Source: a virus. Taken from it: a stretch of 40,359 nt of DNA. The notes under the pieces are model-generated. The model worked only from the letters and a program-made list of their open reading frames with translations. It ran no database searches and was not told the DNA's origin. Position numbers and translations under genes: made by a program. This document shows, piece after piece, positions 16 to 22,956 of the stretch. Location: the IMG/VR virus record IMGVR_UViG_3300042923_000724, positions 1 through 40,359 of that record; one strand, written 5' to 3'. Positions within the stretch are counted from its first letter, which is position 1, and the number at the start of each line of letters is the position of its first letter.

Positions 16-1707
16 TCAGTAATAGATGAAGTTGTCGGCCGGATCGTCGAACTGGCCATCCTTGAGCGCGTCCATGGCCGCCTCGTGGGCCAGATTCGAA
101 CTCATCGCCTGGTCGATCTTTTGGTGGTCAGCGCCGTGCGGCTTCCCCAGCACGTACCGCTGCATTGTCTTCGCGATCATCACCGCGTTCGTGACGTGAG
201 TGCGGGTCACCGTGTCGCCGTCGTGACGGAACCGGGAATCCGGGTTACGGATCGCTGACCGGAACTGCTCGAGCGACTTGTGCATCGCCGTTATCGCGTT
301 CGTCTGCCACGGAAGGAAGACCTTCGGGCCGTACTTGGCAGCCCACTCTGCGAGCTCGGTCCGCCAGGAATCGTCATCCTGAAGGGCCGCGTCATCGATC
401 GCACCCATTGCCGACCCCGCAGGGTCGATGTAGGCACGGACGATGCGGTACTCGCTGGCAAGGTAATCAACCGCTGCGCGAACCTCACCACGAGGGATGA
501 ACCCGCCATAGTTAGCGGGATCCCAAACCGTGAGGCGCTTGTCACCGCCAACGTCGTAAGTCGGCGTGAACTGATACAGGTCCTTGGTTTCCAGCCGAAT
601 GCCGGTCCAGTCGTTGTTGTTCGACAGGTCCATACCCATGGCGACCGCAGTGCGCGGCTTCACCTCGAGCGGGGCGCGCTTCGCATCCCACTCCTCGGGA
701 GTCACCCACTTGCCGGCGCCCGCAACCAACCTGTTACCGAAGAACCGTTCCGCGTCCGCGGGGTCCTTCTCCAACATCTCGGCCGCTTCGCCCTCAATCG
801 TGTCCAGAGACACCCACGGGGCACCCTCATAGTTGAACGCGAAAATCTTGCGGCGTTCCTTCTTGTTGCGGAAGGACAGGTTCGCCGGCGGATGACGGAA
901 GTCGCGGTTGACGTCCTTCGCCTGAGACTCATACGTGCGCTGCGCAACCGAATCAGCCGCAGGATCCCACGCGTTCGTCGTCTCGATGGCGCGCCCACCC
1001 ATACCGGCCAGACCCTGACGTTGCTTCTTCGCCAGGTTGTGCCCACCATTGGACTTCAACCACAGCCCGGTCTCGTCCTGAACCACGAACGTGACACGCT
1101 GCCCCAGCCGAGAGTTACCCTTTGACGTCACTACATCGATACGCCCGTTGCCGGGAAGCCGAATAAACTCCTCACCCGTCTTCGGGATCAGATCCGACAG
1201 TGGCCCCTGCTCGATCATCGGACGCAGCACGTCATACGTGTTGTCCGTCTGATCTTCCGACGTCGCCGTGATCTGAATCAACGGTGTCGCCCACGGGCGC
1301 CCCATCGGAGCACCCTCCGCGTACCGTTCGACCCAGCCGCAGTAACAACCGTGCTCAGCACAGTCGTAAACCTCGCCGCCCTTCGCCCAGCCAGCGAACA
1401 ACACCGGACCGACGCCCTCGGCGCACACAAACGCCGAAATCAGCGGAGACTTGCCCCACTTCTGCGCCCGCACAAGCTGCGAACGACGGTAAACGAACGC
1501 CGCAGCGAGCGGGTTCGCGGGAAGAGAAGGGTCCGACTCCGCACGCGGATCGAACTTCGCAGCCCCCCGCACCATGTAGTGCGTGCCCACGAACTTGAAC
1601 TGCTCATCAGCAAGACGAAAGGGCAGACCCATGTGAGAGCGGTCAGGAACAACGCAATGACGCTCAATCCACTTCGGAACAATCAGCAGAGGCCGGTCAG
1701 CCACCAT
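16..1707 (-). CDS. terL: Terminase large subunit (packaging ATPase and nuclease)
   Basis: The packaging motor subunit drives DNA into the prohead and cuts the concatemer. With the ATG at 1707 it is 563 aa. A Walker A-like AQKWGKSPL lies at about residues 81-89, and a Walker B segment VTFVVQDET ends with D211-E212. The C-terminal RNase H-fold nuclease begins near MGMDLSNNND (D360). The upstream open frame runs to 1797, but the 1707 start gives only an 11-nt overlap with the small terminase, which fits the local style. One oddity is an insertion of about 18 residues in the ATPase domain (residues 113-131) with Cys116, His119, Cys121 and Cys123, possibly a zinc knuckle, at a place where relatives usually have a short loop before GRPW. 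The family assignment is firm. Confidence 0.95.
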   Translation of the reverse strand: MVADRPLLIVPKWIERHCVVPDRSHMGLPFRLADEQFKFVGTHYMVRGAAKFDPRAESDPSLPANPLAAAFVYRRSQLVRAQKWGKSPLISAFVCAEGVGPVLFAGWAKGGEVYDCAEHGCYCGWVERYAEGAPMGRPWATPLIQITATSEDQTDNTYDVLRPMIEQGPLSDLIPKTGEEFIRLPGNGRIDVVTSKGNSRLGQRVTFVVQDETGLWLKSNGGHNLAKKQRQGLAGMGGRAIETTNAWDPAADSVAQRTYESQAKDVNRDFRHPPANLSFRNKKERRKIFAFNYEGAPWVSLDTIEGEAAEMLEKDPADAERFFGNRLVAGAGKWVTPEEWDAKRAPLEVKPRTAVAMGMDLSNNNDWTGIRLETKDLYQFTPTYDVGGDKRLTVWDPANYGGFIPRGEVRAAVDYLASEYRIVRAYIDPAGSAMGAIDDAALQDDDSWRTELAEWAAKYGPKVFLPWQTNAITAMHKSLEQFRSAIRNPDSRFRHDGDTVTRTHVTNAVMIAKTMQRYVLGKPHGADHQKIDQAMSSNLAHEAAMDALKDGQFDDPADNFIYY

Positions 1708-2161
1708 CGGACAACGCCGCCCAACGATCATCAGCATCAGAAGCCACAAACTCAGCCGCCGCAGCCGCCTCACGCTTCCTAGCGAGCTCGTCAACACTGA
1801 ACTTCCAGCGCAACTGGCCCATCCCCACAGTCGACAGACCCAACTCCGCTTCCATGCGAAGCACAGCCGTCTTCAGGCCAGCCGAAGCCTTCTCCTGAAC
1901 CGACTCAAGATAAGCGCGCACATACGCAGCCACCTGAAACTCAAGGCCCAGCCGGTCCCACATCACAGCCTGCGGCTTCCGCCACAACCGCGCCCACAGA
2001 ACCGACTCCGTCTCAGACCGATCCGCCAACGGGAATGCCGGGATCTCGCCCGCAAACCCCTCAACCGGAAGCGTTACCCACTCCCGATCGCCGGCACGAT
2101 CTCGTCGCATAGCATTCGGATCAGCAGGAGGCCCACTACGGCCATGTCCACCAGAAGGCAT
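1697..2161 (-). CDS. terS: Terminase small subunit
   Basis: This 154-aa protein sits directly upstream of and overlaps the large terminase. It would recognise the packaging site and load the large subunit. The sequence has the usual actinophage small-terminase look: a charged N-terminus, a helical core around LWARLWRKPQAVMWDRL, a long amphipathic helix (about residues 72-112) suited to oligomer formation, and a basic Ala-rich tail. GAGGAG lies upstream of the ATG at 2161. The call rests on position and general composition, because the family diverges strongly. Confidence 0.8.
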   Translation of the reverse strand: MPSGGHGRSGPPADPNAMRRDRAGDREWVTLPVEGFAGEIPAFPLADRSETESVLWARLWRKPQAVMWDRLGLEFQVAAYVRAYLESVQEKASAGLKTAVLRMEAELGLSTVGMGQLRWKFSVDELARKREAAAAAEFVASDADDRWAALSDGG

Positions 2162-2217: not shown

Positions 2218-2333
2218 GAACATCCGTGCGATCCGAACATGTTTGACCTGGAAAACCTCGGAGCCACCTCTCCGGCGGTTCTCTGGCCGAGGGGTGCGAG
2301 GGGGCTCCCCCCTATGGGTTCGAACGGATGTTC
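2218..2333. other. Candidate cos / terminase-recognition region with a 10-bp inverted repeat
   Basis: The 170-nt gap between the HNH gene and the small terminase holds no convincing gene. It contains a perfect inverted repeat, GAACATCCGT (2218-2227) and ACGGATGTTC (2324-2333), around a very G/C-rich tract (2290-2315, with GGGGG and CCCCCC runs). In cos phages with an HNH partner, the cohesive-end site and terminase binding sites typically lie here. The cut site itself cannot be read from sequence alone. Confidence 0.4.
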
Positions 2334-2682
2334 ACCGTTGGTTCCAGCCTCCGGGCTGTCTGCTGGCGGTCTGTGTTGAGTCGCATGGCTTACAGAGTCC
2401 GCGGCCAGCGGCGGGGTTGTTGGGGTCTAGTCCACGTGCGATGAGTTCGTCGCGTCCGAGTGGGTAGTGGTCTGCGATGGTGCTGAGTGCTGTGTTGCAG
2501 CTGACGCAGATGGGGTCGCGTGTGAGTACTGCGGTGCGGAAGGTGAGGTGTCCGCGTGTTGAGTAGCCGCGGTCGCGGGTGGTGCCACGCGCCCTGTCCG
2601 CTGCTCTGCGGTGCTCTAGGCAGCGTGAGCCCTCGGTGGTGGGGAAGATGGTGGGGCAGCCGTGGACGGAGCAGACACGCAT
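2332..2682 (-). CDS. HNH endonuclease of the packaging module
   Basis: The protein is 116 aa with an HNH fold: RDPICVSC (first cysteine pair), the ADHxxP core histidine near residue 70, and GRGLCKPCDST (second cysteine pair) near the C-terminus. A second cysteine-rich motif is at the N-terminus (CSVHGCP and CLEH). HNH proteins of this size next to the terminase genes act with the large terminase in cutting cos DNA (known for HK97-type phages). The usual catalytic CH ending is CD here, so the last metal-binding His is replaced; catalysis might use another residue. The tRNA-Asp gene lies 38 bp upstream. Confidence 0.85.
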   Translation of the reverse strand: MRVCSVHGCPTIFPTTEGSRCLEHRRAADRARGTTRDRGYSTRGHLTFRTAVLTRDPICVSCNTALSTIADHYPLGRDELIARGLDPNNPAAGRGLCKPCDSTQTASRQPGGWNQR

Positions 2683-2720
2683 GTGTCCTCCGTGGGCTTT
2701 GGGGTCGAAGGGAATCGTTG

Positions 2721-2794
2721 CGGTACTGACCGGACTTGAACCGGCGACCTCCCGCGTGACAGGCGGGTGCTCTAACCAACTGAGCTACAGAACC
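2721..2794 (-). tRNA. tRNA-Asp (anticodon GTC)
   Basis: A full cloverleaf can be folded on the minus strand. The D-arm is AGCTCAGTTGGTTAGAGCA-like. The anticodon arm is CCCGC-CTGTCAC-GCGGG with anticodon GTC, and the T-arm is GCCGG-TTCAAGT-CCGGT. The acceptor stem has 7 positions with one T-T mismatch at position 4. The discriminator is G73, an Asp identity base. CCA is not encoded. It lies between the HNH gene and a second tRNA-like element. Confidence 0.9.
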
Positions 2795-2936: not shown

Positions 2937-3017
2937 TGGAGCTGCGCGGATTCGAACCGCGTTTGTCCGGTAGCAGGGAACTAAGGCCCATACTCCCCGG
3001 GCTTTCCTGTCAGCCCC
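2937..3017 (-). ncRNA. Ala-type tRNA-like element lacking an anticodon arm
   Basis: The minus strand begins GGGGCTG and ends CAGCTCC plus A. This is a 7-bp acceptor stem with a G3:U70 wobble and A73, the identity set for alanyl-tRNA synthetase in tRNA-Ala and tmRNA. A perfect T-arm precedes the 3' strand: CGCGG-TTCGAAT-CCGCG at 2945-2961. Between acceptor and T-arm there is no standard D plus anticodon pair. Instead a single imperfect hairpin forms: CAGG (3006-3009) with CCTG (2974-2977), enclosing GCCC (2999-3002) with GGGC (2986-2989). No CCA is encoded. It may be a degenerate tRNA-Ala, a tag-less tmRNA-like RNA, or a tRNA mimic. The fold is seen in the sequence; the function is unknown. 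Confidence 0.55.
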
Positions 3018-3073
3018 GTGGTGTGGTTTGCGCCGTCACCTCGGCGAGATACGGAACCCCCTGCGGTTGCGTG

Positions 3074-4062: not shown

Positions 4063-5187
4063 CTAGAGCACCGTGAGTGAAGACAGGTCGAACCCGTCCT
4101 CAGTGATGTCGAACACGAGGATGCCCGGGTCGGAGTCCTCGCCTGCGACGTTGCGGAACCAGTCGGAACCGTTGTCCGTGGTCGGGCACTGAAGCCACCA
4201 CTTAGACCGGCCCGTGTACGGGTTGCGTCCAGTGGGGACCACCGTCAGACAGTGGAAGTGTCCCGAGATCAGGATGTCGGCCGACCCGATCGGCTGGCCA
4301 CCATGCTGCTGCTTCGACCACCAGTTCACGATCCCGTTCTTGGGGGAACGGTGTCCGTGGACCACGCCGAGGCGGGTTCCGATGACATCGAGGACTGCTG
4401 ATTCGTCGTACTCGGCGGGAATCGTCCATGTCACGTCGAGGCCGGCTGCTTCAGCAACCTTCCGCACCTGCTTGTGGACGAAAATGCCGAGGTCGTCACC
4501 GGGACGCCCAAGGTCCGCCTTGCCGCGGCGCCAGGCAGTGTGGTTACTCGGGACCGCGACGACATCCACGTGACCGTGACGGTGCATGAGTTCAACGAAC
4601 TTGTACACCTCGGTACCGGCAAGGTCCATCTGCTGCGCCAACGACAGATCGTTGGTGAACATCGGGTTGCCACCTGATTCGAAGTTCTCGAACAGGTCGC
4701 CCACCTCGGCGAGCACCGTCGACTGCGGGCGGACACGCTTGAGGTGCGCCGCCAGTTTGACGCGCTTCTCCTCAAGACGATCCACGAGCTCGGGCGTACC
4801 GCCTCGAGCCCCAGTTTTCCCCGCCTGCACGTCCGACAATGCGACGACAGTCACTCGACGGTCAGCCGTAACCCCGAAGGGTTTTCTCGGTACGCGTCTC
4901 GCTGTGGCGTACAGGGCGGGAAGATCCAGTCGCACCTCAAGGGGTGCGACTTTGAAAAAGTAGGACGTGAGCCATTCACCGTCAGGCTGCTGCTTGCGCC
5001 ACTGGTTGACGGTCCCGACGATCTCGTACTCGCCGGCGTCATACCCGAACTGTTCGAGCAGGTCGCGGTGGTTCTGGACTTCACGGATCGGGCCGGTGGT
5101 GATCTCGGCTTCGTCGCCGATGATGACCTGTCGTGCCTGCCATTCGGTGGGGATAGCGCCCAATGCGAGGCGGTTCTCGAGGCTCAT
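4063..5187 (-). CDS. Calcineurin-like metallophosphoesterase
   Basis: The 374-aa protein carries the order of metallophosphoesterase motifs in its C-terminal two thirds: SDVQAGK (D-x-Q in place of D-x-H), EVGDLFEN (GD), PSNHTAWR (NH), VVHGHR (GH) and ISGHFHC (GHxH). Such phage enzymes act on nucleic acids or nucleotides; the substrate is unknown. The N-terminal 115 residues are not typical of the fold. They may bind DNA or a partner. The start at 5187 shares ATGA with the upstream gene. The open frame further upstream is antisense noise over that gene. Confidence 0.88.
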   Translation of the reverse strand: MSLENRLALGAIPTEWQARQVIIGDEAEITTGPIREVQNHRDLLEQFGYDAGEYEIVGTVNQWRKQQPDGEWLTSYFFKVAPLEVRLDLPALYATARRVPRKPFGVTADRRVTVVALSDVQAGKTGARGGTPELVDRLEEKRVKLAAHLKRVRPQSTVLAEVGDLFENFESGGNPMFTNDLSLAQQMDLAGTEVYKFVELMHRHGHVDVVAVPSNHTAWRRGKADLGRPGDDLGIFVHKQVRKVAEAAGLDVTWTIPAEYDESAVLDVIGTRLGVVHGHRSPKNGIVNWWSKQQHGGQPIGSADILISGHFHCLTVVPTGRNPYTGRSKWWLQCPTTDNGSDWFRNVAGEDSDPGILVFDITEDGFDLSSLTVL

Positions 5188-21804: not shown

Positions 21805-22956
21805 ATGGCTAGGGCAAAGGGTGAGGGGGGCCTCTTCTACAGTGAGGCCCGTGGACTGTGGATCGGGCGGATACAACTCCCCCCAGGCCCAGACGGCAAG
21901 CCGCGACGCAAGCAAGTCACTGCGAAGACGCAGGCCGCGCTACAGAAGAAACTGTCCGAGTTGCGGAAGCAGTTGGAGAAGCAGGGTGACCTGCACACCG
22001 CTTCGTTCAGGGTGGACGACTACCTCGACTACTGGATGCGTGAGATCGTCACTCCCAGCCGGCGCCCGAAGACGGCCGCGTCGTACCGGTCGAACCTTAA
22101 GTGGGTGCGGACAGCCATCGGGAGGATGCGTCTCCCCGACGTGAAGCCGGAACACATCCGCCGCGTCATCACCGTCATGCGTGACAACGGCCTGTCATCC
22201 ACCTACCAGCGGAACGTGCACTCCGTGATGGCCGCGGCGTTCATGGACGCCGAACGTGAAGGCAGGATCGCACGCAACCCCGTCGATCTCGTACCCGCAC
22301 CGAAGAAAGCCGTCACCGACCTACACGCACTCACCGCACAAGAAGCCATCGACCTGCTCGAGGTGTTCTCCCAAACAACGGAAGGTGCGCTGTGGGCGAC
22401 GTTCATCCTCACCGGCGCGCGGCGTGGTGAAGTGCTCGGGTTGCAATGGGATCGGGTCAGCGACGTCCTCGACCTGTCATGGCAGTTGCAGCGCATCACC
22501 GACGGCCAGCAACTCCCCGACGGCTTCGAATACCAGCACCTCACGGACGGTCTCTACCTCACGCGCCCTAAGACGCGTGCGGGGTGGCGCATCGTGCCCC
22601 TCGTAGACCCCCTGGCGTCCATTCTGACGCGCTACCGCGACCAGTCAGTCACCAGCCCCTACGGCCTTGTTTTCGCACGCCCTAACGGGCACCCCTTCGA
22701 CCCCGACTTCATCACGAAACAGTGGATCAAGATCCGGGAGCTCGCGGGCATCAACCGCAACGTGCGTGTCCATGACCTCAGGCACACCACAGTCGACCTG
22801 CTGTACGCGGCCGGAGTCGACGAGGTCACCATCACAGCCATCATCGGCCACTCGTCACGGGTCATGTCGAGGGCGTACAAGTCCCGGTCAGACATTGAGG
22901 CGCTGCGGCGCGGGATGCTCCAGCTCTCCGCGTCCCTCACTTCCCCCGAGTCCTGA
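21805..22956 (+). CDS. int: Tyrosine integrase
   Basis: The 383-aa site-specific recombinase has three parts. These are an N-terminal arm-binding part (GEGGLFYSEARGLWIGRIQLPPG), a SAM-like core-binding domain (about residues 65-160: DDYLDYWMREIVTP, TAASYRSNLKWV), and the catalytic domain from about 170. Catalytic residues are Arg in GARRGEVLG, HDLRHT (H-x-x-R), GHSS (His) and the nucleophile Tyr in MSRAYKS. It would recombine the tRNA-Arg attP with the host tRNA gene. The length is usual for actinophage integrases. Confidence 0.96.
   Translation: MARAKGEGGLFYSEARGLWIGRIQLPPGPDGKPRRKQVTAKTQAALQKKLSELRKQLEKQGDLHTASFRVDDYLDYWMREIVTPSRRPKTAASYRSNLKWVRTAIGRMRLPDVKPEHIRRVITVMRDNGLSSTYQRNVHSVMAAAFMDAEREGRIARNPVDLVPAPKKAVTDLHALTAQEAIDLLEVFSQTTEGALWATFILTGARRGEVLGLQWDRVSDVLDLSWQLQRITDGQQLPDGFEYQHLTDGLYLTRPKTRAGWRIVPLVDPLASILTRYRDQSVTSPYGLVFARPNGHPFDPDFITKQWIKIRELAGINRNVRVHDLRHTTVDLLYAAGVDEVTITAIIGHSSRVMSRAYKSRSDIEALRRGMLQLSASLTSPES

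Follow-up and report, generated by a model that had tools for sequence, protein, structure and literature searches.

The window analysed here is the whole of a 40-kb virus record from IMG/VR (40,359 nt). Its terminase has its closest counterparts in Streptomyces and Arthrobacter phages (~50% identity), from which we infer that the host is probably actinobacterial. The tail genes are encoded on the minus strand, as is a short array of RNA genes which begins behind a conserved leader, ends with a conserved trailer and is followed by an HNH endonuclease gene (Table 1). The element under study is the first RNA gene of this array. A tyrosine integrase is encoded 19 kb away from it.

The leader (3046-3018) comprises the hairpin CGCCG-AGGTGA-CGGCG followed by CAAACCACACC. 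Its 5-bp stem covaries (CGCCG/CGGCG versus CGTCG/CGACG) and its loop has the form NGGTGA. The RNA array behind the leader is exchanged as a whole, in a cassette-like manner. Two further blocks of the minus strand separate the element from the tRNA-Asp gene. The block at 2862-2936, right after the element (TGCGAG...AGTTGCAACCCTCGCA), recurs in six related contigs; its closing stem is kept in relatives, it belongs to no Rfam family and its folding energy is unremarkable. The block at 2797-2861 folds better than shuffled sequences (z -2.3) and recurs in one of these six contigs.

Table 1. Coordinates of the element, its parts and neighbouring features in the window. TLD, tRNA-like domain of tmRNA, the ribosome-rescue RNA of bacteria.
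Feature	Position	Strand	Basis or remark
Terminase	16-1797	-	
HNH endonuclease gene, directly downstream of the RNA array	2332..2682	-	phrog_589 / phrog_144
Conserved trailer TTCCCTTCGAC, closes the RNA array in relatives	2704..2714	-	comparison with relatives
tRNA-Asp(GTC), last RNA gene of the array	2720..2794	-	ARAGORN; RF00005 69 bits
TLD-only, tmRNA-like RNA, 81 nt	2937..3017	-	fold; RF00023 sub-threshold match; R1 68 bits, R2 29.8 bits
Discriminator A73; CCA not encoded	2937..2937	-	sequence; relatives
Acceptor stem, 3′ strand CAGCTCC, U70 at 2940	2938..2944	-	sequence; covariation in relatives
T-arm CGCGG TTCGAAT CCGCG	2945..2961	-	sequence; 5/5 pairs covary in relatives
Linker ACAAA, P2 to T-arm	2962..2966	-	constrained-fold parsing
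Capped P2 hairpin with hypervariable tip; replaces tmRNA P2, messenger domain and pseudoknots	2967..3000	-	fold, relatives
D region ACAGGAAAGC, unpaired; A8 (tRNA: U8); GG as in tmRNA D-loops, without UUCGAC	3001..3010	-	sequence, relatives
Acceptor stem, 5′ strand GGGGCTG, G3 at 3015	3011..3017	-	sequence; covariation in relatives
Conserved leader: hairpin CGCCG-AGGTGA-CGGCG, then CAAACCACACCAC	3018..3046	-	common to 42 viral contigs
Tyrosine integrase	21805-22956	+	

The element and its relatives

Inspection of the window sequence located the 81-nt RNA gene on the minus strand (3017-2937) as the preliminary description had given it, with a 7-bp acceptor stem in which G3 pairs with U70, the discriminator A73 and an intact T-arm. 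From 5′ to 3′ the element reads GGGGCTG-ACAGGAAAGC-(34-nt hairpin)-ACAAA-CGCGG TTCGAAT CCGCG-CAGCTCC-A. The 49 nt between acceptor and T-arm had been thought to form a single hairpin and not D plus anticodon arms; folding bears this out and divides them into 10 unpaired nucleotides, the 34-nt hairpin (CCGG, AGTA, GGG) and a 5-nt linker. Neither in the fold nor in the sequence did we find an anticodon arm, a D stem, a tag frame or pseudoknots.

In the window, ARAGORN called tRNA-Asp (2794-2720) alone, and Rfam at gathering thresholds returned tRNA-Asp and nothing besides. At relaxed thresholds the tmRNA model RF00023 matched acceptor and T-arm alone, 46 nt of the element standing in for 328 of the model, with 20.8 bits against a cut-off of 47. 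The canonical tRNA fold that would have contradicted the preliminary description was found neither by ARAGORN nor by Rfam, relaxed thresholds included. A permuted (two-piece) tmRNA, in which the 3′ half of the acceptor comes first and a message is present, can be excluded: the match to RF04321 is weak (20.6 bits), and in the element it is the 5′ half that comes first, covarying with the 3′ half. A descriptor combining sequence and structure matched once in the window, at the element itself, as compared with 0.003 matches per Markov-shuffled window. An over-strict exact pattern search gave no matches, and BLAST of the region against isolated phages returned tRNA-Asp and short T-arm matches, nothing more. 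The folding energy of the element is unremarkable (z -1.07); its fold is proven by comparison with relatives and not by minimum free energy alone.

Forty-two viral contigs contain the leader, and almost all of them come from three metagenomes whose accession numbers are neighbours; a pattern for the leader had no matches in 84,980 bacterial and archaeal genomes. A window-type element stands behind the leader in most of these contigs; in the rest the position is occupied by tRNAs or other structured RNAs, with tRNA-Thr at the element's site in four contigs and a tRNA-Gln-like gene in two. The RNA had been taken to belong to a phage, and in many related viral contigs the element does lie next to genes for HNH and terminase. 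In 33 of the phage records no SmpB gene turned up.

Some other RNAs of related contigs deserve mention in their own right. L104 encodes at 824-881 (minus strand) a 58-nt tRNA-like RNA, GGTCAG...CTGACC-A with the T-arm CCGGGTTCGAGTCCCGG, which is smaller than the TLD element and scores 22.6 bits with the covariance model R1 described below. In L094, L108 and L113 a tRNA-like gene of ~140 nt, which either follows the leader directly or stands further on in the array, has a large structured insertion close to its anticodon arm, with the sequence GGCTGATCGTCTAAYGGAAYGGCC...CGGGTTCGAATCCCGCAAGCCGAC.

Twenty-two distinct elements, that of the window included, were parsed under a single constrained-fold scheme. 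Members of the window clade stem mostly from the three metagenomes; the existence of 22 distinct versions shows that the relatives are not assembly copies of one sequence. In every parsed element an acceptor of 6-7 pairs is combined with ~9-13 unpaired nt as D region, a single capped hairpin, a short linker and a T-arm. Among the acceptors of this set are GGGGCTG/CAGCTCC, GGGCCGA/ACGGTCC, GGGCCTG/CAGGTCC, GGGGCGA/ACGCTCC and GGGGCTC/GAGCTCC. In a hand alignment G3:U70 and A73 are present in 22/22 parsed elements, whereas pairs 4, 6 and 7 change, and the first-pass descriptor by which relatives were found demanded neither. The alanine identity proposed for the window element holds up. A further sub-clade of three contigs (L093, L098 and L100) is the exception: its acceptor is GGGGTG/CATCCC, so that G4:U69 replaces G3:U70.

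The hairpin tips are hypervariable in both length and sequence. Identical tips occur on differing acceptors and T-arms, as in the pairs L097/L125, L092/L115 and L105/L108 among others, which implies that tips are swapped by recombination. The UUCGAC D-loop motif is absent from the D region of the window clade.

Fifteen trimmed relatives were aligned with MAFFT, the window being left out. In this alignment 98.2% of cells pair and 26 double changes occur, and none of 500 shuffles reached either figure; when the structure is slid along the alignment, the paired share drops to 28-46%. Compensatory changes are seen in acceptor and T-stem, with both-side changes at all five pairs of the latter. A covariance model built from the same alignment (R1) recovers the window element with 68 bits (E 2.9e-15) and has no other credible match in the window; members were found in 39 of the 53 records examined. 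Rapid loss of pairing in relatives would have spoken against the element, and no such decay is seen. The plain alternative of the preliminary description, a decayed tRNA-Ala, is excluded by this covariation and by the fact that none of the element's relatives has a D or an anticodon arm.

TLD-only RNAs in other phages

Viral contigs were also searched with two patterns. The first described a tmRNA TLD in which no more than 16-46 nt close P2, with U70 fixed and G3 not; in the second the acceptor was left free. The first matched in at least 120 viral contigs. Three pattern matches (L145, L146 and L147) were dropped as they resembled coding sequence, and one more (L139) appears to be a tmRNA remnant. 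Parsing yielded 85 distinct TLD-only elements of 67-81 nt among the matches listed; pair 3:70 is G:U in 84 of them and A73 is present in all 85. For elements found by the acceptor-free pattern alone, again among the matches listed, G:U stands at 3:70 in 29 of 30, and the sole exception (L275) looks like a mis-parsed, shortened acceptor. Among the matches listed, pairs 4 to 6 change freely and in a compensatory way, the UUCGAC-type D-loop motif is kept, and a tRNA gene lies within 1 kb of 15 of the 85 elements. The examples tested against RF00023 score 54-81 bits, above the Rfam tmRNA threshold.

Cultured phages carry such genes too. The Streptomyces phages LuckySocke (OR725497, 17977-18054) and Shaeky (MT701595, 42932-43010) each have an unannotated TLD-only tmRNA gene inside an annotated tRNA array, and these RNAs reach 57-59 bits with RF00023. 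BLAST indicates TLD-only RNAs also in phages GiJojo, pSt2308, Alone3 and BRock. One narrow TLD pattern had no matches in the 84,980 bacterial and archaeal genomes, a result that does not rule out TLD-only genes of a broader type there; with so narrow a survey, phage specificity of the class is not established. Viral contig collections may moreover contain prophage or bacterial sequence.

Several observations touch on this class. A single marine viral contig, L083, holds two different TLD-only tmRNAs, at 1562-1638 and 5108-5183 (minus strand). An unrelated viral contig, L086, encodes at 384-474 (minus strand) a tRNA-like RNA with G3:U70 and an encoded CCA, in which two hairpins replace the D and anticodon arms (RF00023 24 bits). 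Pistol ribozymes lie in stretches with TLD-only tmRNAs at L192 6093-6154 (minus strand) and L212 1621-1716 (plus strand).

A second covariance model, R2, was built from 11 elements of the wider class with the window family excluded. It finds the window element at its exact coordinates, over the whole model, with 29.8 bits (E 3.2e-6). Reciprocally, R1 gives 29 bits on the LuckySocke TLD and 24.5 bits on that of Shaeky, as against at most 15.2 bits in the rest of their tRNA-rich stretches, tRNAs included (Shaeky tRNA-Ala 11.3). Judged from these sequence models, a shared ancestry of the window family and the wider class is likely. It remains unproven, since some other members of the window family score only 21-23 bits under R2, near the best ordinary tRNAs, and convergence on the shape is possible.

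Possible functions

Pairing in acceptor and T-arm is under strong selection, G3:U70 and A73 are fixed, and D stem, anticodon arm and message are all missing. In related phages tRNA genes may occupy the same site, and unrelated phages have a class of RNAs that matches in structure. As data on expression, charging and binding are lacking, the role of the RNA can only be inferred; its sequence does not tell a decoy from an inhibitor or from an active rescue adaptor. The reading we prefer, and which in our judgement could equally prove right or wrong, is that the element is an alanylated tmRNA mimic competing with host ribosome rescue. It draws on the mycobacteriophage DS6A, which has a TLD-only tmRNA (tmID 11587); an RNA similar to the DS6A TLD is reported to inhibit tmRNA strongly, chargeable or not, perhaps via SmpB titration (PMC4131195, PMC11915505).

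The phage RNA would be matured by host RNase P and the CCA-adding enzyme and then charged with alanine by host AlaRS, whose determinants are G3:U70 and A73 (PMC3968760). EF-Tu, possibly together with SmpB, would bind the alanylated RNA, which may then become a competitor of host tmRNA, the contested partner being SmpB, EF-Tu, AlaRS or the stalled ribosome. We propose that this competition damps trans-translation during infection; having no message, the phage RNA cannot add a tag. The weakest link is SmpB, which binds the elbow of the TLD and its single-stranded D-loop (PMC3968760). With UUCGAC missing from the D region of the window clade, SmpB binding is uncertain and perhaps weak or absent. 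Other points also count against the mimic. Inhibition irrespective of charging leaves the fixed G3:U70 unexplained, the RF00023 score of the element is low, some relatives reach only about the level of ordinary tRNAs under R2, and there is the G4:U69 sub-clade. That G3:U70 is fixed suggests an importance of charging which SmpB titration does not cover, and leaves room for a role as active adaptor or alanine donor.

As a minimal rescue adaptor, alanyl-TLD with SmpB and EF-Tu would enter stalled ribosomes, accept the nascent chain and help to free the ribosome without tagging, the proposed benefit being that ribosomes and phage proteins stay available. The charging determinants, which SmpB titration does not need, are strictly kept, and mitochondria have conserved tmRNAs that lack a tag frame and are considered useful (PMC11915505). 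Such an adaptor seems to us unlikely all the same: no resume frame or stop codon is present, hence no known route to finish release, and the related TLD RNA is reported to inhibit rescue, not to support it. The alanine might also be donated to a non-ribosomal reaction, or the RNA might act as a sink for AlaRS or EF-Tu unrelated to trans-translation. In the window clade strict conservation is indeed limited to the surface for AlaRS and EF-Tu, the SmpB-contacting D-loop motif being gone; against this stand the retention of that motif in the wider class and the lack of a recognisable alanyl-transferase-type gene among ten window proteins scanned (a subset of the ORFs), and we hold donor or sink to be very unlikely. 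A quite unlikely reading, to be ranked ahead of the donor, has the RNA as a decoy or resistant substrate, with no anticodon to cut, for those bacterial toxins or defences whose targets are charged tRNAs or the acceptor ends of tRNAs. Among phage genes, tRNAs are known to serve in anti-defence. The occupation of the site by tRNA-Thr, tRNA-Gln or other tRNAs in relatives, the TLD-only genes inside Streptomyces phage tRNA arrays and the conservation of acceptor and T-arm all suit such a decoy, which leaves unexplained the stemless tmRNA-type D region, the capped P2 and the UUCGAC retained by the wider class.

We give scarcely any weight to the idea that the element is a remnant, be it a decayed tRNA-Ala, a decayed tmRNA or an attP copy of the 3′ end of a host tmRNA. 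tmRNA genes are common integration sites, and in mycobacteriophage Milly a 28-bp, attP-like match to the tmRNA 3′ end, and to that end only, adjoins the integrase. Unlike in Milly, both acceptor halves are present in the window, covarying in relatives with the high paired share reported above, and the integrase is far away, so that attP of a tmRNA-integrating phage is excluded; in many phages, moreover, the element is found at one and the same place, next to the genes for HNH and terminase. Barely credible, too, is a cis-acting structure that is merely tRNA-like, for instance one that serves to process or regulate the message for HNH and terminase. The element does lie upstream of HNH on the same strand, in the leader region behind the conserved hairpin, but real tRNA genes replace it at the same spot and the AlaRS identity elements are fixed.

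Should the mimic be the right reading, its bearing may extend beyond the window. We suggest, tentatively and with a shade less than even confidence, that alanine-chargeable mimics of tmRNA with neither message nor anticodon are common among unrelated phages as an anti-rescue tool or weapon, and that the actinobacteriophage clade of the window has its own divergent, modular version with swapping tips. Inhibition or hijack of trans-translation by phage RNAs is almost unexplored; in the open-access literature searched, DS6A was the only phage found with a TLD-only tmRNA. New here are the 85 distinct examples in viral contigs (among the matches listed) and the unannotated ones in cultured Streptomyces phages, which make the idea testable with existing laboratory phages. 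A sharp prediction, that alanine charging matters, follows from G3:U70, which is never relaxed to a Watson-Crick A:U although its neighbours change freely. The window clade illustrates the divergence of such RNAs and raises the question of which contacts are truly needed.

Comparison with known systems

With canonical tRNA-Ala the element has in common G3:U70, A73, the T-arm and alanine identity, but it lacks D stem, anticodon arm and U8, and tRNA programs do not call it. The likeness to tmRNA (ssrA, RF00023) noted in the preliminary description reaches further, embracing an acceptor with G3:U70 and A73, A8, an unpaired D region, a T-arm and the P2 helix. As had also been noted, the element is far shorter (81 nt versus about 230-400) and has no tag frame; pseudoknots are absent as well, and its RF00023 score stays below the cut-off. 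By the D-region criterion of full tmRNAs, GG...UUCGAC, the window's ACAGGAAAGC is unpaired and has the GG, with UUCGAC missing.

TLDs without a message are also represented by the CDS-less plastid tmRNAs of Mallomonadaceae (~65 bp; PMC11915505), with which no sequence comparison was made; those are organellar, whereas the window element belongs to a phage. The TLD-only tmRNA of DS6A is likewise a phage RNA gene of barely more than a TLD and without a tag frame (sequences not compared). From the DS6A type the window clade differs in lacking the UUCGAC D-loop motif, in P2 tips that are hypervariable and recombine, and in its place in a cassette that tRNA genes also use. The RNAs of LuckySocke and Shaeky match the element reciprocally in covariance searches and share its layout and its setting in phage tRNA arrays, but they keep the UUCGAC-type D-loop that the element has lost. 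Of the roles first considered, a minimal tmRNA-like device is the best description: the element corresponds to a tmRNA TLD in which a hypervariable loop closes helix P2, that is, a TLD-only tmRNA.
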